From positions 1 through 29,074 of the IMG/VR virus record IMGVR_UViG_3300042923_000432: 29,074 bases of DNA. One strand, 5' to 3'. The stretch comes from a virus. The notes beneath the pieces were generated by a model. It searched no databases, was not told the DNA's origin, and saw only the letters and a program-made list of their open reading frames with translations. This document shows positions 849-28,515 of this stretch, piece by piece; the first letter of the stretch is position 1; the number at the start of each line of letters is the position of its first letter. The translations under genes were made by a program, and so were the position numbers.

Positions 849-2810
849 TCAATCCTTCTGATAAAATTTAGTAACAAACCCGTCAGCCTTCAGCGGCAGT
901 CCCGGCGCCCATGGGATCGGCTGCGCCATGATCTCCAGTACCCGGTCAAGGTCCTCCGTCCTTCCGACCTCGATGCCTACCTCGTCATGAACGTGCAGCA
1001 CCGTTTCGAATCCGGTCTGTTCGAGACGGATCAGCGACACGGCCAAGCAGTCCCGTGCGATCGCCTGGACAACGTTCTCCGTCAGCTTCCCGCCGTACGT
1101 GGACAGCACCGTCCATTTCTTTGTTTGCTGGTCCATGCCCCAATAGTGAAGCGCCTGCTTGCCGAAATCGTTCTCCTTGAGGAATGGCTTCGCATAGTAC
1201 AGCTTCCGGCCGCTTGGGAGCTGGATTGTGAAGAAGTCCTGCCCCGTTCCGTAATGGCTTTCCCGGGCGAAGATCAGCCCCTTTACCCCCACCGCCTGAC
1301 CGGTCTCCATAACCTCCAGTGCGGCTGCTTCTAGGCTGAACCACAGGTCAACAATTCGCCGGTTAGCGTTGCGCCACCGAAGCACGATCTCGGGAAGCTC
1401 ATCTTCCGTTAGCCCTTGATCTAGTGCCCCCATCGCGATCAACGCGCCCTTCCCGCCTTGGTACCCGAGAGCCAGCTCGGCCACTTTCCCCTTTTGACGC
1501 AGATCGCTGCCCTTGCCGATCTCCTCGATCGGAACGCCGAACATCTGCGAAGCCGACGCTTCATAGATCTTGCCGTGCGTCGCGAATACATCCAGTCTCC
1601 ACTGCTCTCCGGCCAGCCAGGCGATGACGCGGGCCTCGATCGCCGAATAATCCGCGACCCCTAGATCTTTACCGTCAGGAGCGATAAACGCCGTCCGGAT
1701 CAGCTGCGACAGTGTATCCGGCACATTGCCGTACATGAATTTGAGCATAGGCACGTTCTGAGAGGAAACGAGCTGCCGTGCAAACTCCAATGTAGAAAGA
1801 TAATTGCGTGGTAGATTCTGAATCTGCACAAGCCGCCCAGCCCAGCGCCCCGTCCGGTTCGCACCGTAGAACTGGAGCAACCCACGTACCCGGCCATCAC
1901 TGCAAGCAGCCGCGCGCATCGCCGCGTACTTCTTGGTGCTTGTTTTGGAAAGTTCCTGCCGGATCTCCAGGACGCGCTTTGCATCGCCGTCGTCAAGCTT
2001 GCCGATTAACTTGCTTACGGTCCCTTTTTGCAGGTTCTCGACCTCTTCTCCGGTCTCTTCCTCCAGCCATTTCGAAAGCTGCTGTACGCTCTTCGGGTTA
2101 TCGAGCCCGGTCAGCTTAATCGCTTCTTGCCGCAGTTCCGCGGTTACCGTCTCGTCTACTGCCAGCGCCCCCTCGACCATATCCAGATCGCAGGCCAGCC
2201 CGCGGGCATTGATTCGTTGGTCGAGCTCCCATAGCTTTTGTTCCTGTTCCGGAACCGGGAAAACAGAGAGGCGGCGAAGCATTTCCATTTCGGCAACGAC
2301 GTCGCCGACACAGTAGTCCTTAAAGAGCTTCCACTTGTCCGGCTCGTGATGCGGCAGCGTCCGGGTCCGGCCGCCGTTCGTCTTGGTTGGCTTGCACGGC
2401 ACACAGAAAGTCCGGATCAGCGCCCCGCCCGTTCCAAGCTTGCGTTTATCCTGCTGGATGCCCATCGCTTCGCCAGTCGGGCCCAGCCCCGAAGTATAGC
2501 CACAGTATAGGCCGTGCATCATCGTGCAGCGCCATTGCTCGATTGGCGAATGCATTACACTGTTGATGCAGTACCACTCGAAAGCGGCATTGTATGCGTG
2601 CTTGACGACATGGGGGTCATATAAAGCGTGTATAACCTCCATTGGCAATGACTCTTTCTGTGCCAGGTCGACGATCTGCACAGGGCCGAAGTCCCACGAA
2701 TAAGCGAAGAGCAGGATCTCGAAATCAGGTGACTGTGCATATTTGTAAGCGCCGGCTTTCTTAATGTCAACGCTGGAGAAAGTCTCAATGTCTATAGATA
2801 AATGCCGCAT
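849..2810 (-). CDS. Family A DNA polymerase with 3'-5' exonuclease domain
   Basis: This 653-residue protein is a phage replicative DNA polymerase of family A (Pol I/T7 type). The N-terminal DnaQ-like proofreading domain has D7-x-E9 in DIETFSS, N74 in the exoII region and Y166...D170 in exoIII. The polymerase domain has motif A DYSAIEARV at 387-395, motif B R438...K442...Y450 and motif C HDE at 608-610, so all catalytic residues are present. There is no 5' nuclease domain, which is usual for phage versions. The ATG follows GAAAGGAG by 6 bases. It lies downstream of the ssDNA-binding protein and upstream of the AAA+ gene, separated from the former by a short hairpin with a T tract. It would copy the phage genome. 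Confidence 0.96.
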   Translation of the reverse strand: MRHLSIDIETFSSVDIKKAGAYKYAQSPDFEILLFAYSWDFGPVQIVDLAQKESLPMEVIHALYDPHVVKHAYNAAFEWYCINSVMHSPIEQWRCTMMHGLYCGYTSGLGPTGEAMGIQQDKRKLGTGGALIRTFCVPCKPTKTNGGRTRTLPHHEPDKWKLFKDYCVGDVVAEMEMLRRLSVFPVPEQEQKLWELDQRINARGLACDLDMVEGALAVDETVTAELRQEAIKLTGLDNPKSVQQLSKWLEEETGEEVENLQKGTVSKLIGKLDDGDAKRVLEIRQELSKTSTKKYAAMRAAACSDGRVRGLLQFYGANRTGRWAGRLVQIQNLPRNYLSTLEFARQLVSSQNVPMLKFMYGNVPDTLSQLIRTAFIAPDGKDLGVADYSAIEARVIAWLAGEQWRLDVFATHGKIYEASASQMFGVPIEEIGKGSDLRQKGKVAELALGYQGGKGALIAMGALDQGLTEDELPEIVLRWRNANRRIVDLWFSLEAAALEVMETGQAVGVKGLIFARESHYGTGQDFFTIQLPSGRKLYYAKPFLKENDFGKQALHYWGMDQQTKKWTVLSTYGGKLTENVVQAIARDCLAVSLIRLEQTGFETVLHVHDEVGIEVGRTEDLDRVLEIMAQPIPWAPGLPLKADGFVTKFYQKD

Positions 2811-2863: not shown

Positions 2864-3721
2864 TTAAATCCCCCAAACGCCCCCGCCTTGCAGCGGCTTG
2901 CCTGTGATCGGATCAATCTGCGGTTGGGGTGGTTGCCCATAGCCCGGCTGCGCAGGCGGTTGGCCGTAGGCAGGTGGCTGTTGACCGTAGCCTTGTTGCC
3001 CCGGTTGGTTGTAAGTCTGACCGTAACCGGGCTGCTGACCATAACCGGGTTGAACCGGGGGCTGCTGGCCGTAGCCAGGCTGCGCGGGTGGCTGTCCATA
3101 TGCTGGCGGTTGACTGTAACCGGGCTGTTGATTGTATTGCTGGGGCGGTATTTGGTCGAAGCCCTGCGGCGCTTCCCCAAAATCTGCAGCTGCGGTACGA
3201 CCTCCCCCGCTAAGAGGAACACCGTCTTCGAGCTTTTGAACGTTGCCCAGTCCGCAACCGATCCCTTTCTTCCCCTCGGCATTGTAAGGGAAAAACCGAA
3301 TCGATACCCGAGCATACACGCCGGAATAAATCTCGGACTGATTCATAATCGGGTTAAGGTTCGCATCGACAATGTCCGGCTTCCGATCCGCCTTACTGGA
3401 CGCGGTAAGCACCCAATGCCCTTTGCACTCAGGACCGAACGGCATGCCATCGCTAGGCTTTACACCGTCGCCGTCATGAATTGGCATGTGGATCAGCGGG
3501 GGACGTACACCATTCCAAACTTTCCCCGTTCCATCCTGCACTGCTGCGTTAATCGCGGCATCCAGCCGCTGCTTGGTCGCAAAATCGGTCTTAGGGATCA
3601 GCAGGGTCGCGCTAAATTTAGGTTCCTTCCCCTGCTGCTTGGCATAAGGCGTGAAGAGGTGAACAAAGCTAAGTCTTACCTTTCCTGTTACTACCCGTTG
3701 CGCGTCTTGGTTTGTTGTCAT
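2864..3721 (-). CDS. DUF2815-type phage ssDNA-binding protein with PQYG-rich tail
   Basis: The 285-residue protein has an N-terminal domain (about 1-175) of the DUF2815 family, which is found in phage replication operons and is related in role to T7 gp2.5-like single-strand binding proteins. Residues around [16 protein letters not shown] and [11 protein letters not shown] are the recognisable start of the family. Residues 192-268 form a low-complexity tail with about ten tyrosines in repeats such as QPGYGQQPP; the protein ends with a compact VWGI after IDPITGKP. The start codon overlaps the stop of the DUF2800 gene (ATGA), so the two are translationally coupled. Known SSBs use disordered tails to recruit partners, so this tail may do the same; that is inference. 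Confidence 0.88.
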
Positions 3722-4914
3722 TGGTCGTTTCCTCCATTATCGTTAAAGTCGTCTGCAGCGCTTAATCGTGTAATCGCTTCTCGTTTATCTTCAATTGGTG
3801 CCAGAGTCGGGGCTCCAGCCTTTTTCAACACATGACCTGGGGTTTCTAGCAGCTCCTTGTACTGCTTCTTACCAAGTGCTTCTTCAAGCTGCGGCGGCGT
3901 CAGCGGCTCACGATTGTACAAAAGCGCTTCGTCAATGCCTTTCGCTCTCAGATGTGCGAATGCCGCATCGAGATTGGTATAGTCTCGGCTGCCGCGCCCT
4001 TCTACTGCCTTCCAGCCAGGTACACGCTCCCCGGTGAGGATCCGCGAAAGCGCGATATTTTTGAGCCCTTTATACCAGGACACAATCCCTTCAGCTCTGT
4101 GCAGCGCGTCGCCGACCTCCTCCCACGAAATCAGGGGTGGCTTAAGCGGCGCTTTGCCCCCTACCGACATAAACTGTTCAACCCTAGCTCGGCACGTGTC
4201 CCGAGCCCGGCAAAATCCACAATGCTCCCCGACAACGTACTCGCCCTCGCCGGCATATGCGGCCGCGGCGACCGGCTTGATGGATTCGCCCCATGCAATG
4301 AGCTCTGCTGCAGGAAGCGACCATTCCGACGGACGTTCCCATACTTTCGGTTGGAAGATTGCTAGGTGAACCGTTTCAATTTCGTACAGCAGCGAATAGG
4401 CACGCAACGCCCCAAGCGCATACAGCTTCATTTGCGGATTATCCTCGGCTTCCACCGGCACGCCCTTACCGTTTTTGTAGTCGATGATGTGCAACTCTTT
4501 GCTGCCGATCACGATGCAGTCCCCCGTACCGAAGCCCTCGGGAACGATATGGCTGTAATCCAGCCGGCGCTCGATGGCGATATAGGGCGGCGAACTAAAG
4601 CCGTGGACTACCCCCTGCACATATTCCAGATAGGAGGTCGTGTTCGTATCCATATCCGGCTCGTACAAAGGGTTTGCCTTGAACTTTTTCATGGCTGCTG
4701 CAAACTTCTGCGGCCCGATCGGCTCCACGAAATACTTTCGCAGCTTCAGCTCCGCAATCTCGTGGGCCAGCGTGCCCTTCTTAGCCGCCTCGCTCTCCGT
4801 ATCCGGAAGCGTTGCTTCAAGCCGTGCGCTCGGCGGGCAAGCCAGCCAGCGGTGCGCCCCGCTGGCCGACAGAAGCGCATGGGCGCGCTCCGCGTGTGCT
4901 ACCTGCTGCGTCAT
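3718..4914 (-). CDS. DUF2800 PD-(D/E)XK nuclease, Cas4/RecB-like
   Basis: The start is taken at ATG 4914, which overlaps the upstream stop as ATGA, giving 398 residues; an in-frame start at 5010 would bury 97 bases of the preceding gene. The protein shows a RecB/Cas4-like nuclease fold: H51 in GTLAHE, D132 in GTGD, D145-x-K147 in IIDYKNGKG, and Q161...Y165. An early cysteine (C26 in WLACPPS) and a cluster C232-x2-C235-x5-C241 match the four-cysteine iron-sulfur pattern of Cas4/AddB-type nucleases. DUF2800 proteins sit with DUF2815 and polymerase genes in many phages and are thought to act in recombination or DNA-end processing. The nuclease assignment is good; the exact substrate is unknown. 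Confidence 0.88.
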
Positions 4915-5417
4915 ATCTTGGCCCCCAGGCTGCGCAAGAACATGGCGAATTCTCCGTAATGCGCTTTGTCCAGGGACGAAAGAGCTGCAGCCCCGCGCTG
5001 GTTGATCCACGCCAGCAGCTCCGGGCTCCGGCCTGCATCGATCAGTGGCCCAGCCGCAACGCCAAGCTGTTCCATTGTGTAAGTAGGGGCGTCAGTCGGC
5101 ACTCCGGCAGGCGGCTGCTGGACGGGCTGTTGCGGTTGCGCCGGCTGTGGAGGAGCTACAGGCACAGCTGGCGTATAAGCTGGCGGCTGTTGACTGTATG
5201 CCGGCTGTTGGCTGTATGCCGGCTGTTGCGGCTGCTGGGCATACGCGGGCTGTGCCGAAGGCTCTGTATAAACGGGCTGCGCTGGCTGCTGCATCGGAAG
5301 CGCAGGCGCTGCCGGCTCAGCTACTACAGGCTGCGGGAACTTAGCCCCCAAAGCATTTGCTAAATTGTTGATTGCGCCAACCAGCTCCGGCGCCTGAATG
5401 TTGATCGATATTTGCAT
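4911..5417 (-). CDS. Replication-operon protein with Pro/Gln/Tyr-rich linker
   Basis: The start is set at ATG 5417, nine bases after AGGAGG; an in-frame ATG at 5435 actually overlaps that ribosome site. The 168-residue product has a short helical N-terminus (MQISINIQAPELVGAINNL), a Pro/Gln/Ala/Tyr-rich linker at about 28-112 with PAYSQQ repeats, and a folded C-terminal region at 113-168 ending in [15 protein letters not shown] do not recognise a characterised family. The linker resembles in composition the tail of the DUF2815 protein two genes downstream, and the gene is coupled to the DUF2800 nuclease by ATGA. A scaffolding or loading role in replication or recombination is a guess. Confidence 0.8.
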   Translation of the reverse strand: MQISINIQAPELVGAINNLANALGAKFPQPVVAEPAAPALPMQQPAQPVYTEPSAQPAYAQQPQQPAYSQQPAYSQQPPAYTPAVPVAPPQPAQPQQPVQQPPAGVPTDAPTYTMEQLGVAAGPLIDAGRSPELLAWINQRGAAALSSLDKAHYGEFAMFLRSLGAKI

Positions 5418-5559
5418 GAATGATAGCCTCCTCATTAATTTCGCGGATACAATAGTTACAAGCCATAATGCCGTTCCATTCTTGCAAAAACGTCGGGTGC
5501 GCCTCTTGGCCGCAAACGTCGCATTCGGGAAGAAGTAGATAAATAGCGACCTTGCTCAT
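5341..5559 (-). CDS. Small CxxC/CxxC zinc-ribbon-like protein
   Basis: The 72-residue product begins at an ATG that overlaps the AbrB stop (ATGA). C13-x2-C16 and C34-x2-C37 form a four-cysteine set expected to bind zinc. Its last 25 codons overlap the next gene in another frame by 77 bases, an unusually long overlap; the C-terminal part (HSGAGAGWRNQQ) has the look of sequence constrained by the overlapping frame. The cysteine pairs resemble those at the end of the preceding AbrB protein. The function is unknown. Confidence 0.68.
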   Translation of the reverse strand: MSKVAIYLLLPECDVCGQEAHPTFLQEWNGIMACNYCIREINEEAIIHANIDQHSGAGAGWRNQQFSKCFGG

Positions 5560-5828
5560 GGCACAGCGGGAAACAATCGATCTATATGTTTGGCCATCAC
5601 TTCAACACACGGTTTGCAGATGATTCTTCCGTTGAAATTGCTCATGTCGCCGCGAATTTCCCCGCACACAACGCAACCGGGGGCGTACTTCTTCAGGACG
5701 ATCTGCTCCCCTTGAACGAAAACTTCCACCGGATCGCCTTCTTTAATTCCAAGCGTCCTCCGCAATTCTTTCGGAAGAACAATCCGACCAAGCTCGTCAA
5801 TTCGTCTCACAATGCCTGTTGCTTTCAT
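5556..5828 (-). CDS. AbrB/SpoVT-type transcription regulator with C-terminal zinc ribbon
   Basis: The 90-residue product has an N-terminal swapped-hairpin AbrB DNA-binding domain (GIVRRIDELGRIVLPKELR at 5-23, then LGIKEGDPVEVF) and a C-terminal extension with C52-x2-C55 and C71-x2-C74. AbrB proteins are transition-state regulators that dimerise to bind AT-rich DNA. The start follows AAGGAGG by about 11 bases. Phage-borne AbrB homologues are common in Bacillales and may tune host or phage transcription; its place in the replication operon suggests early expression. The target sites cannot be read from this window. Confidence 0.93.
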   Translation of the reverse strand: MKATGIVRRIDELGRIVLPKELRRTLGIKEGDPVEVFVQGEQIVLKKYAPGCVVCGEIRGDMSNFNGRIICKPCVEVMAKHIDRLFPAVP

Positions 5829-6094: not shown

Positions 6095-6247
6095 TTAGCT
6101 GCCCTGGCCGGCGGCTTTTTCGTTTTCCCCATAAAATACTTCGTAGTCCTCGACTGCATCCCCGATCGAAATCACCCGGGCTTCGTCCTGGCGATCGCCG
6201 TCACAAGCATCGGCAATCCATTTAACCGTTTGCTGAGCCTCGCGCAT
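6095..6247 (-). CDS. Small acidic protein (50 aa), unknown
   Basis: The chosen ATG at 6247 lies 8 bases after a very strong AAGGAGGTGA that itself starts at the stop codon of the Toprim gene. A longer in-frame start at 6283 would overlap that gene and place the ribosome site inside the coding sequence. The product, beginning MREAQQTVKWI and containing DGDRQDEARV, is acidic and probably helical at its N-terminus. No family is recognised. The tight spacing suggests joint expression with the Spo11/TopoVIA-like protein. Confidence 0.6.
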   Translation of the reverse strand: MREAQQTVKWIADACDGDRQDEARVISIGDAVEDYEVFYGENEKAAGQGS

Positions 6248-6263
6248 CTGCTGTATCACCTCC

Positions 6264-7154
6264 TTAACCATACTTTTCTTCAATCTCTGACCAATTCGTT
6301 GCGGCAGCTCGCAGAGTCACTTTTGCTGATTCCTCTCGCTCTTTCGCCGCTTCAAAGGCTTCCAAGTCGCAATATTGGAGCACTTTCTCCCGAATCAGAT
6401 CTTCGATGACTTCAGGTTTCAAAGCGTCCAGTTCCCAGCACTCATGGCCAAATTCTTCGATATATTTGGTTGCACGGCTGTCGGTAAGTTTCGTCGGATT
6501 CGGCGGCGGGCTGTACTGCTCGATCTGATTGAAATTTAAGGCGATTCGTTCAAACTCCACGCTTACCCCGAACAATTCAAGTCGGTCTACGATATCCCGG
6601 CTCATGTCTTTGCCACTTGGATCATGGTCGCCAAGGTGGATAATGTGAATTTCCTTCTGCCCGGCTACATCTTCGAGCCGTTGCGCCGCACTCCACATTT
6701 CGGATTGGCTGACGTAGCCACGGCAGCTAAAGTACGGTACATCGAGTTTCTCGCATATCTGACCGACTATGCCAACGAGAGCATCCTTCTCGACCCATAC
6801 CTCGACGTAGTTGTCCTGGTCCTCCCATTTGTCGATCGCATAGCTGTAGGCAGCCGAGTGGATAATGCTTCCCGGTGAAGACCAATGGCTGTTTTTCCGA
6901 AGATTTCGCGTCCGGTCTTCTATGGCGTCCCAGTCAATAAGCCCGGACATCCGGCCGTCTGAAATTAGATTTCCGAGGTTCTTATAAGACCGCTCATTGT
7001 TTGGAATCACGTCCCGAGCCACAAGCTGATAATATACCTGCCGGAGCGTGAGGCTGTACCCTTTCGCCTGGTATTCGGCGATTATCCCGTTGACGCGTTC
7101 GATTAACCGTAAGCTTTCTGGTCGAAAGTTAATTTCCCGGTAGCAGATTTTCAT
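6264..7154 (-). CDS. Spo11/TopoVIA-related Toprim protein, Mini-A-like
   Basis: The 296-residue protein combines a winged-helix-like N-terminal part with RQVYY at 38-42, matching the region that carries the catalytic tyrosine in Spo11 and topoisomerase VI subunit A, and a Toprim domain. The Toprim glutamate is E122 in VWVEKDALVG, the DxD pair is D176 and D178 in HLGDHDPSGKD, and SCRGYVSQSE at 143-152 fits the strand between them. This pairing of domains is diagnostic of the type IIB topoisomerase A family. At about 300 residues it is shorter than TopoVIA and best fits the solitary Mini-A group known from mobile elements. No GHKL ATPase B subunit is encoded in the window. It could cleave or nick DNA during replication, recombination or packaging; that is inference. 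Confidence 0.82.
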   Translation of the reverse strand: MKICYREINFRPESLRLIERVNGIIAEYQAKGYSLTLRQVYYQLVARDVIPNNERSYKNLGNLISDGRMSGLIDWDAIEDRTRNLRKNSHWSSPGSIIHSAAYSYAIDKWEDQDNYVEVWVEKDALVGIVGQICEKLDVPYFSCRGYVSQSEMWSAAQRLEDVAGQKEIHIIHLGDHDPSGKDMSRDIVDRLELFGVSVEFERIALNFNQIEQYSPPPNPTKLTDSRATKYIEEFGHECWELDALKPEVIEDLIREKVLQYCDLEAFEAAKEREESAKVTLRAAATNWSEIEEKYG

Positions 7155-7175: not shown

Positions 7176-7403
7176 TCAATACAGCTTCATAACCTTGTCG
7201 TACTCAGGCATCAGCTGCTCGAACCATGCCCAGTCCCTCGTTTGCCTGGCCAAGTGGAGTTTGTTCAAAACTGCCGCGTATCGCCACTCCCGGTACACAA
7301 TAAACTTGTGCGACTCGCGCAGCTCGTGAGCCTCCGTTGGGGTTAGCTCCCGTTCAAACATGACGCCTACGATCTCCAGCAGCCGCTTGTCGACGGTGCT
7401 CAT
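7176..7403 (-). CDS. Early phage protein, unknown (75 aa)
   Basis: The ATG at 7403 overlaps the upstream stop as ATGA. The product is mostly helical in appearance, with several aromatic residues (YREWRYAAVLNKLHLARQ and WAWFEQLMPEYDKV). I do not recognise the family. It lies between the HTH protein and the Spo11-like protein in the early operon and is certainly co-transcribed with them. Confidence 0.75.
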   Translation of the reverse strand: MSTVDKRLLEIVGVMFERELTPTEAHELRESHKFIVYREWRYAAVLNKLHLARQTRDWAWFEQLMPEYDKVMKLY

Positions 7404-7702
7404 TTGGCAGCACCCGCATAGTTTTCTGCTTCTCGATCCTTAATCCATTTGTCCAAGCTGCTGGAACTGAATAGGTAACGCGGGTTTCTGCTTCCGTCAG
7501 ATCCAACCGTCCGATAAGGAACTTTCTTAGTACGACAAAGATTCCGGAGTGTGTAATCACTCATTCCCAGGTAGTCACAAGCTTCTTGAAATGTCAGCGT
7601 TACATCGGACTGGACGTTCAAACTTTCACGAATCCGACGTTCTGCTGCGGCGACTTCCTCGACAATGATGGCTCGAATGGCGGCTTCGATTGAAACGTTC
7701 AT
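7400..7702 (-). CDS. Excisionase-type helix-turn-helix protein
   Basis: The 100-residue product has an N-terminal amphipathic helix (about 1-30) and a winged-helix HTH of the excisionase/MerR-like class: LTFQEACDYLGMSDYTLRNL at about 37-56, then KKVPYRTVG and RYLFSSSSLDKWI. Such proteins bind DNA as recombination directionality factors or small regulators. The start overlaps the stop of the Rha gene (ATGA). It is a candidate excisionase for the integrase, but it is encoded in the early operon 2.4 kb away rather than beside int, and a replication-initiator adaptor role is equally possible. Confidence 0.8.
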   Translation of the reverse strand: MNVSIEAAIRAIIVEEVAAAERRIRESLNVQSDVTLTFQEACDYLGMSDYTLRNLCRTKKVPYRTVGSDGSRNPRYLFSSSSLDKWIKDREAENYAGAAK

Positions 7703-8478
7703 GACGCTACACCGTCCATATCAACTTTGTTTTGAATCGCCATTTCTTTCACGATTGCAAAATAAATCTCTGTGAGTCTGCTGTCATCGAAAATAACGTC
7801 GATCTTACTTACCTTGTCGATCTTGGATTTCGCAACACCTTCCAGCGCCATCTTCTTGCGCTTGTTGGTCTGCCGGATCGAAAGATTGCAGTCGGCTCTG
7901 CTCTCTAAACGTTGGTAGCTATCTGAGCGAACATCTTGGTACGAACTCCCGCCGCCAAGCTGCTGAGCGATCTTGTTCAAAAGTGCTGTAACCTTTTTCC
8001 GGCCGTCGATCGTATTTAGGCTCATGATCTCTACCGCGTCGTCGAATTTCTTTTCGACCGCCGAAAGCCGTTTTGCTTGTTCGGCCTGTTCACGTTCGAT
8101 ATTGACCAGGTGAGCGATCGAAGCCTGCAAGATTTCGAGCTGTGTTTGCGGCGACTTGGATTGCTCCCTTTCCATTTCCTCAAAACGAGTAACATATGCT
8201 GCGGTGAACAAAACGCCTTTTTCTCCGGTCATCTTATTTGCTACCATGTCGCAGCCTTTTCGGGTGAGCAGGTAGCATGGTTTAACCCGATTTAGGTTGT
8301 CTTGATAGGTGCTTTCAATGAAGAAATCAGATGAACGGAATTCTCCGTTTAACAAATACTGGATATACCCCTTAATCTTTTCAAGAAGATCGGAATGGCG
8401 AACATCGGTCATTTCAGCAACGTTTCGGCTATCTACGAGAAGTTGACCGCTTTGATTGACGATTTGCAAGTGGGCCAA
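7699..8478 (-). CDS. Rha-family antirepressor-type protein with ORF6C-like domain
   Basis: The 259-residue product starts at TTG, 8 bases after AGGAGG. The N-terminal 110 residues match phage pRha regulatory proteins (DSRNVAEMTDVRHSDLLEKI, the YLLTRKGCDMVANKMTGEKG segment and FTAAYVTRFEEME). A coiled-coil-like stretch follows at about 110-150 and an ORF6C-like DNA-binding region at about 160-255 (KVTALLNKIAQQLG and YQRLESRA). Rha proteins interfere with phage growth in some hosts, and related KilA-N/BRO proteins are antirepressors. The gene follows the Cro-like repressor and has its own -35-like TTGACA and an operator half-site upstream. Confidence 0.88.
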   Translation of the reverse strand: MAHLQIVNQSGQLLVDSRNVAEMTDVRHSDLLEKIKGYIQYLLNGEFRSSDFFIESTYQDNLNRVKPCYLLTRKGCDMVANKMTGEKGVLFTAAYVTRFEEMEREQSKSPQTQLEILQASIAHLVNIEREQAEQAKRLSAVEKKFDDAVEIMSLNTIDGRKKVTALLNKIAQQLGGGSSYQDVRSDSYQRLESRADCNLSIRQTNKRKKMALEGVAKSKIDKVSKIDVIFDDSRLTEIYFAIVKEMAIQNKVDMDGVAS

Positions 8479-8498
8479 TGAATTCCCCTCCTATAGTT

Positions 8499-8554
8499 TT
8501 TTAAGGATCGCTAAATAAACGCTGTCAATTTCTATTGCGTTAATTTAGATAACG
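8499..8554 (-). promoter_or_regulatory. Possible second early promoter with repressor half-site
   Basis: On the minus strand a perfect -35 TTGACA lies at 8528-8523. A weak -10 TTAAAA follows after 18 bases, so promoter strength is uncertain. Just upstream, 8544-8554 reads TTTAGATAACG on the plus strand, ten of eleven matches to the operator half-sites between the two repressor genes, and is embedded in a CGTTA/TAACG inverted repeat (8538-8554). This would put the Rha gene under separate repressor control. Confidence 0.4.
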
Positions 8555-8565
8555 GTATATAATGG

Positions 8566-8838
8566 TTATTGTTGGTGGACGGGCTGGACAACACTCTCTG
8601 CCATCAATACCAAGTCCGGAAAAAGCTCTTCTGGCGGTGCGTCAAAGAACTTTGCTAGTTTGAAAAGCAGTTCAGCACTTGGGTTACTACGAGCCGCTTC
8701 AATCTGGCGGACCTGGCCTTCGCTTACACCAAGGGCAAGAGAGACATCCCTTTGAGAAACGTTAAATTTCTTTCTATAAAGCTGGAACCTCTCCCGCCGT
8801 GGATTGACCCGGGTTTGCTGATTTGATTGGGGCAACAT
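8566..8838 (-). CDS. Cro-like XRE-family repressor
   Basis: The 90-residue product carries a single XRE helix-turn-helix at about 17-72 (YRKKFNVSQRDVSLALGVSE, then GQVRQIEAARSNPSAELLFKLAKFF). It is divergent from the larger repressor gene and is the first gene of the leftward early operon, the usual place for Cro. The strong sigma-A promoter upstream overlaps the operator repeats. It probably shuts off the lysogenic promoter after induction. The C-terminal 20 residues are unstructured. Confidence 0.9.
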   Translation of the reverse strand: MLPQSNQQTRVNPRRERFQLYRKKFNVSQRDVSLALGVSEGQVRQIEAARSNPSAELLFKLAKFFDAPPEELFPDLVLMAESVVQPVHQQ

Positions 8839-8866
8839 TGACTGGTCCTCCTTTCCTTTTGTTTTG

Positions 8867-10145: not shown

Positions 10146-11429
10146 TTGGCAAAAGGTAGTATTGAAAAACGAGGCGAAAATTCTTGGAGGCTACGGGTTG
10201 ATCTCGGCTACCACAGCGACGGCAGCCGAAACCGACCATCAAAGACGATTACGGTAGACGATCCGGCTTTGCTCCGGACGACGAAAAAATTGCGAGAATA
10301 CCTTGAGGACCAACTACACGAATACAAGCGAGAAGTCGAGTCAGGCGAATACATAAAGCCGACCAAAATGACATTCAAGGAATTTTATGAAAATGAATGG
10401 AAACCAAAACATGCTAAAATTGAGTATAAAAACAGCACAACCTTGAAAACGCACTGTTCAAAAATCGACAATCATGTGCTTCCAAAAATCGGACACAAAG
10501 TTTTAGAAGAAATCACTACCATGGCTCTTGTCGAATTATTTGCGAACATGCACAAACCGGGGCACAGGGTTGATAAGCGCGGCGGGAAAGAGACTTTAAA
10601 AACCCGTACAATTCAGTACACTTACGATGTTACGATGAATATTTTTAAACGCGCTGTTGAATGGAATGTACTTAAAAATAATCCGTTAGACGGAGTTAAA
10701 CGCCCCCAGATCAGCAAGGAGGATAAGAAGGCCCGTAAGGACCGCAAGAACTATTTCGATGAAGATGAAGCCGCCCAAGTGATCGAGGCGCTCCTTAAGA
10801 CAACATCGAAGTGGAGGCTATATTTTCTTGGGGCAATTATAGGCGGATTCCGGCGCGGAGAATTAATCGCTTTGGATGAGGACGATTGCGATTTTGAAAA
10901 TTACAGGTTACGGATCGATGAAAGTATATCGGGTACCGAGAATGGGAAAGCAGACATATCAGACACAAAAAATGAAGCATCGAATGATTATGTTGATATG
11001 CCCAAATGGTACATGGATGAGCTTCACATACACATAAAGAACCAACGGAAACAAAATCTCAAGATCAAGGCCGAGGGGGTGTGGAAAGGCGGGGATCGAA
11101 ATTTTGTCTTCCATTCGGGGTACGGGAAACCATACTACCACACTTCGCCGACGCAAATGTGGAAGGAATGGTGCGAGAAAAACGAATTCAGATATGTAAC
11201 GCTTCATGGTCTGCGTCATACGAATGCAACATTCTTATTGGGTCAAGGAGTGTCCATCAAGGAGATTCAGCATCGACTCCGTCACTCAACAGCTCAAGTT
11301 ACTTCGGATACCTATGCGCACGTTACTAAGAAGCTGAGTCGAAAGACGACCTCCCACCTCGATATGTTCGATCCGAAATCTCGTCCCCAATCCGTCCCCA
11401 ATGAGAAGAACAGCACTCAATCGTCGTAA
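10146..11429 (+). CDS. int: Tyrosine site-specific integrase
   Basis: The 427-residue product starts at TTG, about 8 bases after TAGGAGG. The N-terminus (GSIEKRGENSWRLRV) is an arm-type DNA-binding domain, followed by a SAM-like core-binding domain at about 75-180. The catalytic domain has R236 in GGFRRGEL, K275, HGLRH (H354, R357), H380 in HRLRHST and the nucleophile Y390 in SDTYAHV, so it appears complete. It lies beside a tRNA-derived att core and probably recombines attP with the 3' end of a host tRNA-Leu gene. The last codons contain two copies of the candidate arm-site repeat. Confidence 0.97.
   Translation: MAKGSIEKRGENSWRLRVDLGYHSDGSRNRPSKTITVDDPALLRTTKKLREYLEDQLHEYKREVESGEYIKPTKMTFKEFYENEWKPKHAKIEYKNSTTLKTHCSKIDNHVLPKIGHKVLEEITTMALVELFANMHKPGHRVDKRGGKETLKTRTIQYTYDVTMNIFKRAVEWNVLKNNPLDGVKRPQISKEDKKARKDRKNYFDEDEAAQVIEALLKTTSKWRLYFLGAIIGGFRRGELIALDEDDCDFENYRLRIDESISGTENGKADISDTKNEASNDYVDMPKWYMDELHIHIKNQRKQNLKIKAEGVWKGGDRNFVFHSGYGKPYYHTSPTQMWKEWCEKNEFRYVTLHGLRHTNATFLLGQGVSIKEIQHRLRHSTAQVTSDTYAHVTKKLSRKTTSHLDMFDPKSRPQSVPNEKNSTQSS
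11382..11402 (+). repeat. Left candidate integrase arm sites
   Basis: Two direct copies of CGTCCCCAAT start at 11382 and 11393, spaced 11 bases, one helical turn. They overlap the 3' end of the integrase gene, about 100 bases from the att core. The same repeat with the same spacing occurs on the other side of the core. Confidence 0.7.
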
Positions 11430-12441: not shown

Positions 12442-13839
12442 TCACTTCATTTTACGCAATACCACCCCGAGCTCTGCCCAGGTCGGCGTGGTGTCCGGGT
12501 CGCGGACGACATCGGTCAGTCCTTGAGCATTCAGCCATTCGACAGACTCCTGCTTCCAGTCCTTCGGCTGCTCGACCGGCTGCAAGAATATCAGTAGCGC
12601 ATGATGTACGGCGCGCTCATTTGTCCCGACATTTTGATCTTGGTTAAGCCCGCCGGACTGATCCGCGATCACGGAGCTGCCCCCGCCGTCGCCATTGATC
12701 GCCCATACCGCTCCTTTGTCGAGCATGTAAAGCGCCATCTCCTCAAGGGTCAGCCCCTGATCGGATCGAGTACGGCCATCGGAGACCGCAAGCAGCAGGT
12801 TCCCTTCGGCGTCGATCCCGGCAAACGTCCGCTGACAGCGCACCAGGTTTCCGTTTGCGTCCCGGCCGATATCCGTCGCTGTTCCCTCTACCTCCCGGTA
12901 GTAGTCCCAGGCTGCCCGGCCGTTGCTGACGAGCAGCGGCGATCCCGAGAAAGCACAGTCGCTATCATCGACGGCCGATCCCGGCAGGCGGATTTCCGCG
13001 CAGCCATCTTTAAACGTGAGAAAATGCCATTTGTGCGTCTTGCCCCACGCACCGTTGATGTAGCCGGTGCCGTCCCATACCGTCCCGACCGGCAGCTTGG
13101 CCGCAGGATCGAAGTACGGGAAATTGAATCCGAAATCAGCGTCATGCTCCTTGACCAACTCGGACACCTTTGCATCTGGTCGGGCGACTAACTTAAATTT
13201 GGCTTTGCCGCGTTCAATCTTAAGCAGCCGGACATCGGTTCCGGGCTTATTATAGTCAAACGTGAGGTATTCGAGTTTGCCATCACGGGCAATGATCCGC
13301 TCTTTGATGACGGTTGGTCTATTCACAGGTACATACACCTCTTTGGATTTGATCGCCTTTTCTACCGCCTGCCGGAAGTCCTCCCACGCTCCCGGATCGT
13401 CTACGTAAGGGGCCGGACAGCGCTTCCCGGTTACATCATAATGCCGGATCACATCCCGCAGGGGGTTCAGCTCGTACCGCCTGCATAGCTCCGCAACGAT
13501 CGCCACGGTGCGCCGAACCGTCTCCAGGTGGAACGATCCGTCTTTTTCGATGCACATTTCTACGCCGATACTGTATGGATTTGCTTGACTGGCATGATAC
13601 GCAAGCTCGGCCAGCGGAATAATGAGCACGGCGTCGCCCGGATCGACGAAATAATGAGCCGATGCGTAGCGTTCCTTGGATGCGGGGAGCGTCTTGCCGA
13701 AATAGCGAACATGATTCGCCGCCGACGCTCCAGGGTTGCCGGTATAATGTATGACGATATTACGAACAAGCCGGAGAGGAGTCCCCGGCCTTGTGATTGG
13801 ATTGATTGGAATCAGTTCTTCGCGCCAAAGGGCTGTCAT
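12442..13839 (-). CDS. Endolysin: amidase fused to phosphodiester glycosidase (NAGPA) domain
   Basis: The 465-residue protein begins with an Amidase_2/PGRP N-acetylmuramoyl-L-alanine amidase (about 20-165): zinc ligands H31 in VIHYTG, H133 in IRHYDVTGKRCP and C141, with E94 in IGVEMCIEKDG. Residues about 185-420 look like the NAGPA phosphodiester glycosidase family: TFDYNKPGTDVRLLKI near the start, VSDGRTRSDQGLTLEEMA, the INGDGGGSS motif at 381-389 and NERAVHHALLIF. A short C-terminal module (SVEWLNAQGL...TPTWAELG) resembles cell-wall-associated helper repeats. The first domain cuts the stem peptide from muramic acid; the second may remove sugars linked through phosphodiesters, such as on wall polymers. 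It overlaps the holin stop by ATGA. Confidence 0.93.
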   Translation of the reverse strand: MTALWREELIPINPITRPGTPLRLVRNIVIHYTGNPGASAANHVRYFGKTLPASKERYASAHYFVDPGDAVLIIPLAELAYHASQANPYSIGVEMCIEKDGSFHLETVRRTVAIVAELCRRYELNPLRDVIRHYDVTGKRCPAPYVDDPGAWEDFRQAVEKAIKSKEVYVPVNRPTVIKERIIARDGKLEYLTFDYNKPGTDVRLLKIERGKAKFKLVARPDAKVSELVKEHDADFGFNFPYFDPAAKLPVGTVWDGTGYINGAWGKTHKWHFLTFKDGCAEIRLPGSAVDDSDCAFSGSPLLVSNGRAAWDYYREVEGTATDIGRDANGNLVRCQRTFAGIDAEGNLLLAVSDGRTRSDQGLTLEEMALYMLDKGAVWAINGDGGGSSVIADQSGGLNQDQNVGTNERAVHHALLIFLQPVEQPKDWKQESVEWLNAQGLTDVVRDPDTTPTWAELGVVLRKMK

Positions 13840-25187: not shown

Positions 25188-26408
25188 TTACAACGTCTTC
25201 ATCCACGCTTCAATCTGTGGTACTAGAAATTCTTTATATCCTGCTTCGTTTGGATGACAGCCATCACCCGCGCCAGCAGTCTGCAACGAATACTGGTCCC
25301 TAATCTCATCCAGTTCGTAATTGAGTCCGCTACTATTGAACAAATCAAGGTACGGAATGCTCCACTTCTTGCAAATTTCACGAGCTTTTTCCCAATACGG
25401 ATTGGACTTGGTATTTCCGACAACATCGAAGGTTCCCCTGATCTTGAACGTGATGATAAATCCGATCTTTTTGCCGCGCCATTTCAACTGTGCTTGCTTG
25501 AAAATACTCTCCAGTCCACCGCAAAAAGTCGTATCATTCAGCGTTGCGCTGTATGTTGTAGTCACTGTTCCGAGAGGGACACTAAGCCAGTAGTCATTTA
25601 TGCCGCCTTGAAAGATAATATAGTCGGCTTTTTCATCCATGTTCACAATGTCTTGGCATATCCAATGACGTTTCGAACCACCACTTCCATACGTTTCAGC
25701 GGCAATAGTTCCGCCACTTACAGCATACCCGGCGGCACTCATGCCGTTTCTACGCGCAATTTCAGTACACCATCCGGTGTTACTTTTGGGATACAATGTT
25801 GCGGGGGGATTCGCCCACCCTGCTCCAGCAGTAATGCTGTCACCGTTGTAAAGCGCTCGCTTTCCTGCTAACGGATTGTCACTTGATAATACAGGGTTGT
25901 TCATACAAGTGTAATGAGCAGAAGCGGAAGATTCGGACGGGTATGTCGTTCCCTCAACAACAACATCCCTACTCAAACTATTCAATTGCCCACAGACACG
26001 CATGGTGGCGGCATTTGCAGGAGCTATGAAGGTGAACGGAGATGCTGTTCCTGACGCTGTTCCGATTTGTCCCGCATACTCTCCAGTTGATGTGAAGAAC
26101 GATCCGAAAAAGCGATCAGCATGCCGAATCGTATATTGAGTTCCAGGAATTACTTTTATAGAGTGACTTGTGTAATACGACGCACCTGCTACAAGATTAC
26201 CTGCCTGCATGTAGTATCCAATAGAATTTTCGGGATTGTACATATCAAACAGGTTAATACTCTTCCCAACAAAGTCTACGTCAGTCGTTGTGATTTGAAC
26301 CGATTTATCGCGCTTGCCGGACACCTCAGACGTAACCGTGTTTAGGTCTTGACGCAACTCGGCATTGTCAATAACGACGAAGCTGGGGTTCATCCCCTGG
26401 AAGCTCAT
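25188..26408 (-). CDS. SGNH/GDSL-family hydrolase, probable fibre-like esterase
   Basis: The 406-residue product starts at ATG after AGGAGG. Residues about 45-165 are a beta-rich N-terminal domain resembling carbohydrate-binding or fibre modules (GTQYTIRHADRF, PANAATMRVCG). The C-terminal SGNH domain has S191 in YNGDSITAG, the oxyanion glycine in VSGG at 231-234, N271 in QGGIND, and D382/H385 in DGCHPNEAGY, so the catalytic set is complete. Such enzymes on phages deacetylate surface polysaccharides. It sits between head genes, not tail genes, in a pair with the 102-residue protein, bounded by terminators on both sides. It could be a head fibre or a late-acquired accessory enzyme. Confidence 0.9.
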   Translation of the reverse strand: MSFQGMNPSFVVIDNAELRQDLNTVTSEVSGKRDKSVQITTTDVDFVGKSINLFDMYNPENSIGYYMQAGNLVAGASYYTSHSIKVIPGTQYTIRHADRFFGSFFTSTGEYAGQIGTASGTASPFTFIAPANAATMRVCGQLNSLSRDVVVEGTTYPSESSASAHYTCMNNPVLSSDNPLAGKRALYNGDSITAGAGWANPPATLYPKSNTGWCTEIARRNGMSAAGYAVSGGTIAAETYGSGGSKRHWICQDIVNMDEKADYIIFQGGINDYWLSVPLGTVTTTYSATLNDTTFCGGLESIFKQAQLKWRGKKIGFIITFKIRGTFDVVGNTKSNPYWEKAREICKKWSIPYLDLFNSSGLNYELDEIRDQYSLQTAGAGDGCHPNEAGYKEFLVPQIEAWMKTL

Positions 26409-26782: not shown

Positions 26783-26935
26783 TCATTGCTTATTTTTATC
26801 GCTCTTTTCTTTTGTTTCGAGCTCCTCGTCCGGCAGATCGTCGAACGACTGATCCGGCCTCAGTCCGAGCATTTCCTTCAGATCTTTTACCGCGTCTTCG
26901 TTTGGCCCGTCTAATCTCGTTCTGATTTTATCCAC
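26783..26935 (-). CDS. Small acidic protein after MuF (50 aa)
   Basis: A GTG at 26935, 8 bases after GGAGGG, opens a 50-codon frame overlapping the MuF gene end by 25 bases. The product has an acidic central part (DGPNEDAVKDLKEMLG and FDDLPDEELE) and a lysine-rich end. No family is recognised; its place in the head operon suggests a head-assembly accessory. Confidence 0.68.
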   Translation of the reverse strand: MDKIRTRLDGPNEDAVKDLKEMLGLRPDQSFDDLPDEELETKEKSDKNKQ

Positions 26936-28515
26936 TCGAGCATCCCTCCGTTCCAGTCTTTAAGGCAAGCTTTGACAACTTTATCGTATTCGGCGTCAGA
27001 TCCTTGCTTAACGACTTTTTTGATTCGCCGAGCAAGAGATCTTGACATTTCTTGTTTATCAAAGCCTTCCAATTTGGTTATTACCTCTACGTTACCATTG
27101 TTCTTTACGATCGACAAGGTCTTAATGTTATCGCCCATAAAAAACATAAGGTCCGTCATCGAATAGCTCTTATTCTTAGGATGATTGTGCATGATAAACA
27201 AGTCAGTTCCCGAGTACAACGCGTCCAGCGATGCTTTTGATGTGAAATCAAGCTTATCGCTTTGTCCGATTTCGGCAGCACGTTTCGCTAGCTTACGGTC
27301 GAAAATAAAGGCGCATTCGTTGCCGCTGTTCTTATCTCGGGCATACCGCAGCAACGCTTTATGCTGTTCTTGGATGAGGGCACTTTGGTTGTCATCCAAT
27401 CCATGCAATTTAGCGTAAGGCACACCGTTAATAGCTTCATCGGTAATGGCCGTTAGTTTGCCTTTGGACGGTTCTTGCAAGCGCTGGGTTTCTGTACGCC
27501 ATTGCTCGTAGCTCATATTCGCCGGGACAAGCATGGTTTTGCCCGTCTCCGGGTCCCGTGCTCGCCGTTGGATACCCCGGACCGTTTCGTCACCGATAAC
27601 CGCGACCGTCGTCGATCGGCAAAACGGATGCAACGGCGGCATGTTCTTGCCCGGGACTGCTTCGGACACCTGATAGACCTTCAGATCATGGGAGCGGCAT
27701 TGCGGCGATGTGCGGTTATCCAGCGTCGCCACAAACCGATACCGGTCGATCTCCGCCTCTTCGTAGCTCTCCAACTCGGCCGCATTCGCCATGTACGTCG
27801 TTTCCGTCCGAATGAGCCGGTTCGCCGCGTGCTTGCCGACCTCGGTTCGCTCCAGCAGCTCCTCGACCATCTTGCGGACGCCTGTGCCGGACATAAAACC
27901 GCCGGTTAGCACTTCGTTAAGCAAGCGGGCCAGTGCATCGGTGTTGTCCCATATGCGGCTGCTGTAGTGTTCCCCGCTCCAAGGACGCTTGAGGATCGTC
28001 TCAATCACCCGAGCCGGCATGGCCGCAAACTCGAAGCCGACGCCGATCCCTTTCTGCAAATCGAACATCGTCCGGTAATAGGCTTCGTTTAGGATCCGCA
28101 CGTAACCGGCTGTACTGGCCGTAATTTCGGCGTCGGCGATCATCTTCGACTGCAAGTACACTTGCTCTTTGAGCGCCTGCAGCCGGGTAATACGGGCCCG
28201 ATACGCTGGGGCGTTCATCCTGTTAAGCATCCAGCGCCGAACACGTTCGCTTTTCACCCGTGGGTACATTCTTTTCGCGAAGCTCAGCAGCGGATTCGGG
28301 ATTTGCTGGTTCAGAATCTTGCGAGCCTGCGCCGGGTCCATCTGGCCGTTCTTGCCGAACGTGTAAAAAATCTTATCGACCTCGGCCTGAATGTCCCGAA
28401 TCGCCTTATCGTACGCCTGGTTGATCGTCTGAACGGTGGAGTCGGCGGCCCGATGGTACCCGGCCATGCGCTGCATGGAGCGCCGCTCCCAATATGCGTT
28501 ACTCCGCTTTTTCAT
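26911..28515 (-). CDS. MuF-type minor head protein with HNHP C-terminal domain
   Basis: The 534-residue product has an N-terminal helical part, then the SPP1 gp7/MuF domain (about 180-310) ending with the signature C273, YQVSEAVPGKNMPPLHPFCRS at 281-301, where D266/C273/H296/C299 are likely metal-site residues. After a linker (310-365) comes an extra domain of about 165 residues with E400, AFIFDRKLAKR, and H443-N-H445-P, S452 and D455, then a TLSIVKNNGNVEVITK strand pair. The H-x-H-P...S-x2-D arrangement resembles JAB/RadC-type metal sites, one residue shorter than usual. MuF proteins in temperate phages often carry variable C-terminal effector domains. It overlaps the portal gene by 17 bases. 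Confidence 0.9.
   Translation of the reverse strand: MKKRSNAYWERRSMQRMAGYHRAADSTVQTINQAYDKAIRDIQAEVDKIFYTFGKNGQMDPAQARKILNQQIPNPLLSFAKRMYPRVKSERVRRWMLNRMNAPAYRARITRLQALKEQVYLQSKMIADAEITASTAGYVRILNEAYYRTMFDLQKGIGVGFEFAAMPARVIETILKRPWSGEHYSSRIWDNTDALARLLNEVLTGGFMSGTGVRKMVEELLERTEVGKHAANRLIRTETTYMANAAELESYEEAEIDRYRFVATLDNRTSPQCRSHDLKVYQVSEAVPGKNMPPLHPFCRSTTVAVIGDETVRGIQRRARDPETGKTMLVPANMSYEQWRTETQRLQEPSKGKLTAITDEAINGVPYAKLHGLDDNQSALIQEQHKALLRYARDKNSGNECAFIFDRKLAKRAAEIGQSDKLDFTSKASLDALYSGTDLFIMHNHPKNKSYSMTDLMFFMGDNIKTLSIVKNNGNVEVITKLEGFDKQEMSRSLARRIKKVVKQGSDAEYDKVVKACLKDWNGGMLEWIKSERD

Follow-up and report, generated by a model that had tools for sequence, protein, structure and literature searches.

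A phage Mini-A protein as a candidate stand-alone DNA-cleaving relative of Topo VI-A and Spo11

Identification of a Mini-A Gene in a Phage Record

The IMG/VR virus record IMGVR_UViG_3300042923_000432 encodes a 296-residue Mini-A protein that is most likely a dimeric, tyrosine-dependent DNA-cleaving enzyme, acting independently of ATP (adenosine triphosphate) and serving phage replication or recombination. The window analyzed here, 29,074 bases, is the whole record and probably a fragment, because the portal gene is truncated at the right end of the window, and its source, judging by the closest Mini-A relatives and by the sole phage record with nucleotide similarity, is a Paenibacillus-type phage. 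The original prediction, made from the letters of the window alone, had the coordinates and length of the open reading frame (ORF) right, with the strand, which is minus, as the one correction. It also placed the motifs RQVYY (residues 38-42), E122 (within VWVEKDAL) and D176-x-D178 (within HLGDHDPSG) correctly. The gene and its key codons are:

6264..7154, minus strand: Mini-A gene, 296 amino acids, with an N-terminal 5Y-CAP winged helix (R38...Y42) and a Toprim domain (E122, D176, D178, E241)
7029..7043, minus strand: codons R38-Q39-V40-Y41-Y42; predicted roles are catalytic tyrosine for Y42 and clasp arginine for R38
6789..6791, minus strand: codon E122, predicted Toprim metal ligand, present in 173 of 173 relatives
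6621..6629, minus strand: codons D176-H177-D178, the Toprim DxD, each aspartate present in 173 of 173 relatives
6423..6434, minus strand: codons E241-L-D-A244, putative counterpart of the Topo VI-A E342 motif (ExxA; PMC13040014)

Membership in Mini-A, proposed at the outset and borne out here, is direct, since the protein is homologous both to the locus of Pseudomonas phage NP1 (47.8% identity over 90% of the query, E 4e-74), a named example of Mini-A (PMC7614492), and to a protein of archaeal plasmid LC711082 annotated "Topo Mini-A" (32% identity, E 7e-33). PHROG 6247, "DNA topoisomerase," matches the ORF over its full length (E 6.7e-115), while Pfam and NCBIfam searches of the 296-residue protein gave no significant match. 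The traits of Mini-A, as given in reviews, are present: the protein is a truncated Topo VI-A homologue (296 versus 360-390 residues) with the 5Y-CAP tyrosine and the Toprim glutamate and DxD, and it is encoded on a mobile element: the phage record also carries integrase, portal and MuF genes, and phages and plasmids are among the relatives. The NP1 and LC711082 proteins match it in length, in two-domain layout and in every catalytic residue, at overall identities of 45 and 32%, respectively, and no feature distinguishes the window protein from other Mini-A proteins. It is a known kind of protein, and the window gene is a further member. In the NP1 record, the label "putative DNA topoisomerase" is attached to a 63-residue ORF at 10497-10688, and the true Mini-A at 7959-8861 is labelled hypothetical.

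A tblastn search with the Mini-A query found matches in 76 phage and 53 plasmid records, and relatives number at least 90 in IMG/VR and at least 154 in GTDB genomes. The closest copies lie in prophages of Paenibacillus and other Firmicutes (91% in P. hemerocallicola), and close relatives span hosts from Paenibacillus to archaea.

Conserved Residues and the Predicted Nucleophile

Conservation was assessed over 173 aligned relatives from phages, prophages, plasmids and an archaeal plasmid, all of which retain R38, Y42, D80, E122, G146, D176, D178, G181 and A244. Against the closest relatives, the ratio of nonsynonymous to synonymous changes (pN/pS) is 0.08-0.19 with synonymous sites saturated, which indicates strong purifying selection. 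Because R38, Y42, E122, D176, D178 and G181 are invariant under such selection, the RQVYY and Toprim motifs are not a matter of chance, and from this conservation we infer a DNA cleavage chemistry.

The choice between Y41 and Y42, raised in the original prediction, is decided by conservation in favor of Y42, the likely nucleophile, because it never varies whereas position 41 may be Y, F, H, W or A. In the YY pair of archaeal Topo VI-A, the second tyrosine aligns with chain position 35 of 1d3y, which we take to be Y103, and with M. mazei Y106. This last residue is the catalytic tyrosine of the M. mazei enzyme (PMC13040014), and in mouse SPO11, too, it is the second tyrosine of the tandem pair that is used (PMC11922746). 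Furthermore, the four-residue spacing from R38 to Y42 equals that from R102 to Y106 in M. mazei Topo VI-A.

Fold and Relationship to Topo VI-A

An AlphaFold2 model built on a 58-member alignment is confident, with a predicted local distance difference test (pLDDT) score of 94.9. Foldseek against the PDB returned just three matches with E<1e-3, all of them M. mazei Topo VI-A, covering 282-288 alignment columns with probability 1.00 and E 2e-4. The OLD, primase and RecR Toprim families were considered and set aside as weak, lower-ranked fold matches, and the profile and structure searches did not give OLD or primase Toprim families alone as best matches. The winged helix claimed originally is supported by the secondary structure of the model and by a weak profile match of TP6A_N to residues 20-46 (E 0.005), a match also found, weakly, in 10 of the 58 family members. 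In profile alignments, the YY of Mini-A aligns with the YY of Topo VI-A with a weak score. A sequence search of the PDB gave nothing relevant, a fold search of BFVD nothing informative, and PADLOC no match.

Mini-A shares with Topo VI-A and Spo11 a winged helix with R-x3-Y, a Toprim E...DxD and a C-terminal ExxA, and Topo VI-A provides its sole significant solved-structure matches; it differs in its low identity (11-13%), in the B subunit that these enzymes have, and in the packing seen in the model. The full-length fold match to Topo VI-A, at a low similarity score, speaks for the proposed type IIB topoisomerase A/Spo11 architecture, but by sequence the Toprim half is nearer to DUF2399/JetD. 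Topo VIII, another type IIB relative found on mobile elements, carries a GHKL ATPase part; the window protein has none.

Absence of the N-Terminal Latch and of a B Subunit

Mini-A has 41 residues before the catalytic tyrosine, compared to 105 in M. mazei Topo VI-A, or about 64 fewer. The absent stretch covers residues 44-67, which form the latch of Topo VI, and mutation of this latch abolishes relaxation (PMC13040014).

The 29,074 bases of the window encode no GHKL ATPase, and a Topo VI-B transducer was found in none of 46 related viral, phage and plasmid records, some of which may be fragments; for five named phage and plasmid records, the search covered the entire record. The initial statement that no B-subunit ATPase is in view therefore stands on the GHKL search for the window and on the transducer search for the related records. 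Two GHKL matches occur among the latter, one of them weak; the other was considered as a B subunit and rejected, as it looks by sequence like a histidine kinase.

A Predicted Clasp and Its Natural Variants

In Topo VI, R102 and E342 form a clasp that keeps the tyrosine away from DNA, and E342Q yields a cleavage-prone enzyme (PMC13040014). The E241-L-D-A of Mini-A matches the ExxA motif of E342, and R38 and E241 appear to correspond to the clasp pair, with the equivalence of E241 and E342 drawn from motif and position rather than superposition. The R38/E241 pair is retained in 169 of the 173 relatives, whereas in four copies on actinobacterial plasmids position 241 is Q and position 243 is E. 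Release of cleavage by Q at 241 is a prediction. Loci L217, L218, L219 and L222, on Rubrobacter and Streptomyces plasmids, form a deep Mini-A branch with Q241, E243 and A or T replacing K123; 43 Streptomyces plasmid records match the Mini-A query.

Proposed Mechanism and Alternatives

Mini-A is a truncated homologue, standing alone, of Spo11 and the A subunit of Topo VI; Spo11 makes the DNA cuts with which meiotic recombination begins. Two copies would form one DNA-binding channel with hybrid active sites, in which Y42 of one copy works with the E122/D176/D178 metal site of the other. Each strand would be broken by transesterification, leaving Mini-A on the 5′ end, and the R38-E241 pair would restrain the tyrosine until the DNA bends or the dimer forms; the analysis shows the family, the similarity of fold, the conserved residues and the missing partner, and from there we infer the dimer, the covalent chemistry and the cut polarity. 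Lacking both a B subunit that would drive strand passage and the N-terminal latch segment, Mini-A should cut, or nick and reseal, instead of running a full ATP-driven topoisomerase cycle. That a solitary A-type subunit can be active is plausible, because SPO11 dimers cut DNA in vitro without partners (PMC11922746) and some Topo VIII enzymes need no ATP to act, with DNA relaxation in its absence described for one of them (PMC7614492). Overall, a tyrosine-dependent enzyme of DNA cleavage or nick resealing is the probable reading of the conserved residues.

Several results weigh against this reading. The Foldseek template modeling score (TM-score) to Topo VI-A is just 0.34 despite the full-length alignment, and the domain packing of the monomer therefore either differs from that of Topo VI-A in the model or is mispredicted. 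HHalign against a narrow euryarchaeal Topo VI-A set was not significant, but the Toprim half matches JetD (E 1e-5). Across 166 loci no neighbor family is fixed, and none is a conserved neighbor that would prove a recombination role. Finally, the literature searched yielded no Mini-A biochemistry or reported activity.

Mini-A could be a relaxase that nicks and reseals DNA without ATP, relaxing supercoils ahead of phage replication and leaving no lasting breaks. This is one form of the tyrosine-dependent reading and overlaps with it in probability; we regard it as a tentative possibility. It draws on the Topo VIII precedent and on the many Mini-A genes near helicases, primases and polymerases, but the latch needed for relaxation by Topo VI falls in the stretch that Mini-A lacks, and strand passage by Topo VI is ATP-driven. 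Somewhat more doubtful is the proposal that Mini-A plays the part of Spo11 in phages, making programmed breaks that initiate recombination-dependent replication while being restrained by R38-E241, with the actinobacterial Q241 branch released and cleavage-prone.

The main alternative chemistry is that of a JetD/MksG-like nuclease, in which the Toprim domain hydrolyzes DNA with metal, the winged helix just binds DNA, and no tyrosine acts as a nucleophile. The Toprim half is closer to DUF2399/JetD profiles than to Topo VI-A, with E-[NK], G-[QY]-x-S, GDxDxxG and a C-terminal glutamate in common; DUF2399 matches are weak, occur in 14 of 58 relatives with E at best 1.5e-4, and do not rise above the Pfam cut-off for the window protein. 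However, JetD, the Wadjet nuclease, works with an SMC complex, and no SMC-type partner is among the recurrent neighbors of Mini-A. The JetD set lacks a near-invariant tyrosine, and the 5Y-CAP region of MksG offers no tyrosine candidate (PMC10123090), whereas Y42 and R38 are invariant in the 173 Mini-A proteins. The tyrosine kept throughout Mini-A is missing from JetD and MksG, so a JetD-type hydrolase is disfavored and we consider it unlikely.

Least likely is that Mini-A borrows a host GHKL ATPase (GyrB, ParE, MutL or similar) as its B subunit: HATPase_c proteins are encoded in 14 of 14 control genomes, and in vivo both Topo VI and Spo11 function together with partners of the B type, but a Topo VI-B transducer match is absent from 33 of the 35 host genomes carrying relatives (the other two are archaeal metagenome-assembled genomes, one with a weak match), the N-terminal segment of Topo VI-A is missing from Mini-A, and close relatives of Mini-A occur in hosts as far apart as Paenibacillus and archaea.

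Genomic Context

The genes around Mini-A are listed here:

7699..8478, minus strand: Rha-type antirepressor gene, by profile matches
7400..7702, minus strand: HTH_17 DNA-binding (excisionase-like) gene, with a 4-base overlap with each neighbor
7176..7403, minus strand: DUF7667 gene, 75 amino acids, just upstream of Mini-A in the same operon
6095..6283, minus strand: 62-amino-acid ORF overlapping the Mini-A 3′ end, with no PHROG match
3718..5010, minus strand: DUF2800/PD-(D/E)XK exonuclease, downstream of Mini-A
2864..3721, minus strand: Enc34/Gp2.5-like protein for single-stranded DNA binding and annealing, by profile matches
849..2810, minus strand: phage family-A DNA polymerase, by profile matches

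This minus-strand order, from antirepressor and HTH_17 gene through Mini-A to exonuclease, annealing protein and polymerase, agrees with the early-operon placement first proposed, and the overlap between Mini-A and the 62-residue ORF makes translational coupling possible. Mini-A would probably supply breaks or topological relief to a replication and recombination module, whose downstream exonuclease and annealing protein would process the ends. The operon position holds, and the DNA-cleaving role first proposed with it, in replication, recombination or host takeover, is a guess from neighbors only.

Among the 166 loci, the commonest neighbor families are regulators (33 loci) and integrases (26 loci), and helicases, primases, polymerases, a ligase, a Sak4-like annealing protein and single-stranded DNA-binding proteins recur. 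In phage NP1, Mini-A is flanked on one side by a RecA-type ATPase and on the other, across one small ORF, by a DNA ligase. An apparent 420-residue neighbor family in 14 loci proved to be an ORF running antisense across Mini-A and was discarded.

Elsewhere in the window, all on the minus strand, a 90-residue protein (5556-5828) joins an AbrB/MazE-type DNA-binding domain to a CxxC zinc-ribbon-like tail (CVVCGE...CKPC), and an endolysin-like protein (12442-13839) fuses Amidase_2 to an NAGPA phosphodiester glycosidase domain. A GDSL/SGNH hydrolase gene (25188-26408) is unusually placed, with the portal/MuF genes on one side and the capsid scaffold gene on the other. The MuF-like head protein (26911-28515), of which Pfam matches the MuF part only, has a C-terminal extension in which an H-N-H-P...S..D stretch resembles a JAB/JAMM metalloprotease motif.

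Significance

Mini-A is widespread, with at least 170 relatives over phages, plasmids, bacterial prophages and archaeal elements. The present analysis adds a conservation census, assigns Y42 as the likely nucleophile, relates R38-E241 and its natural Q variants to the Topo VI clasp, and finds a B subunit to be systematically absent. For the Topo VI cleavage-control clasp reported in 2026, Mini-A would make a convenient model. Ultimately, a small, single-subunit relative of Spo11, if it cuts without ATP or partners, would reveal how the bare type IIB cleavage module acts.
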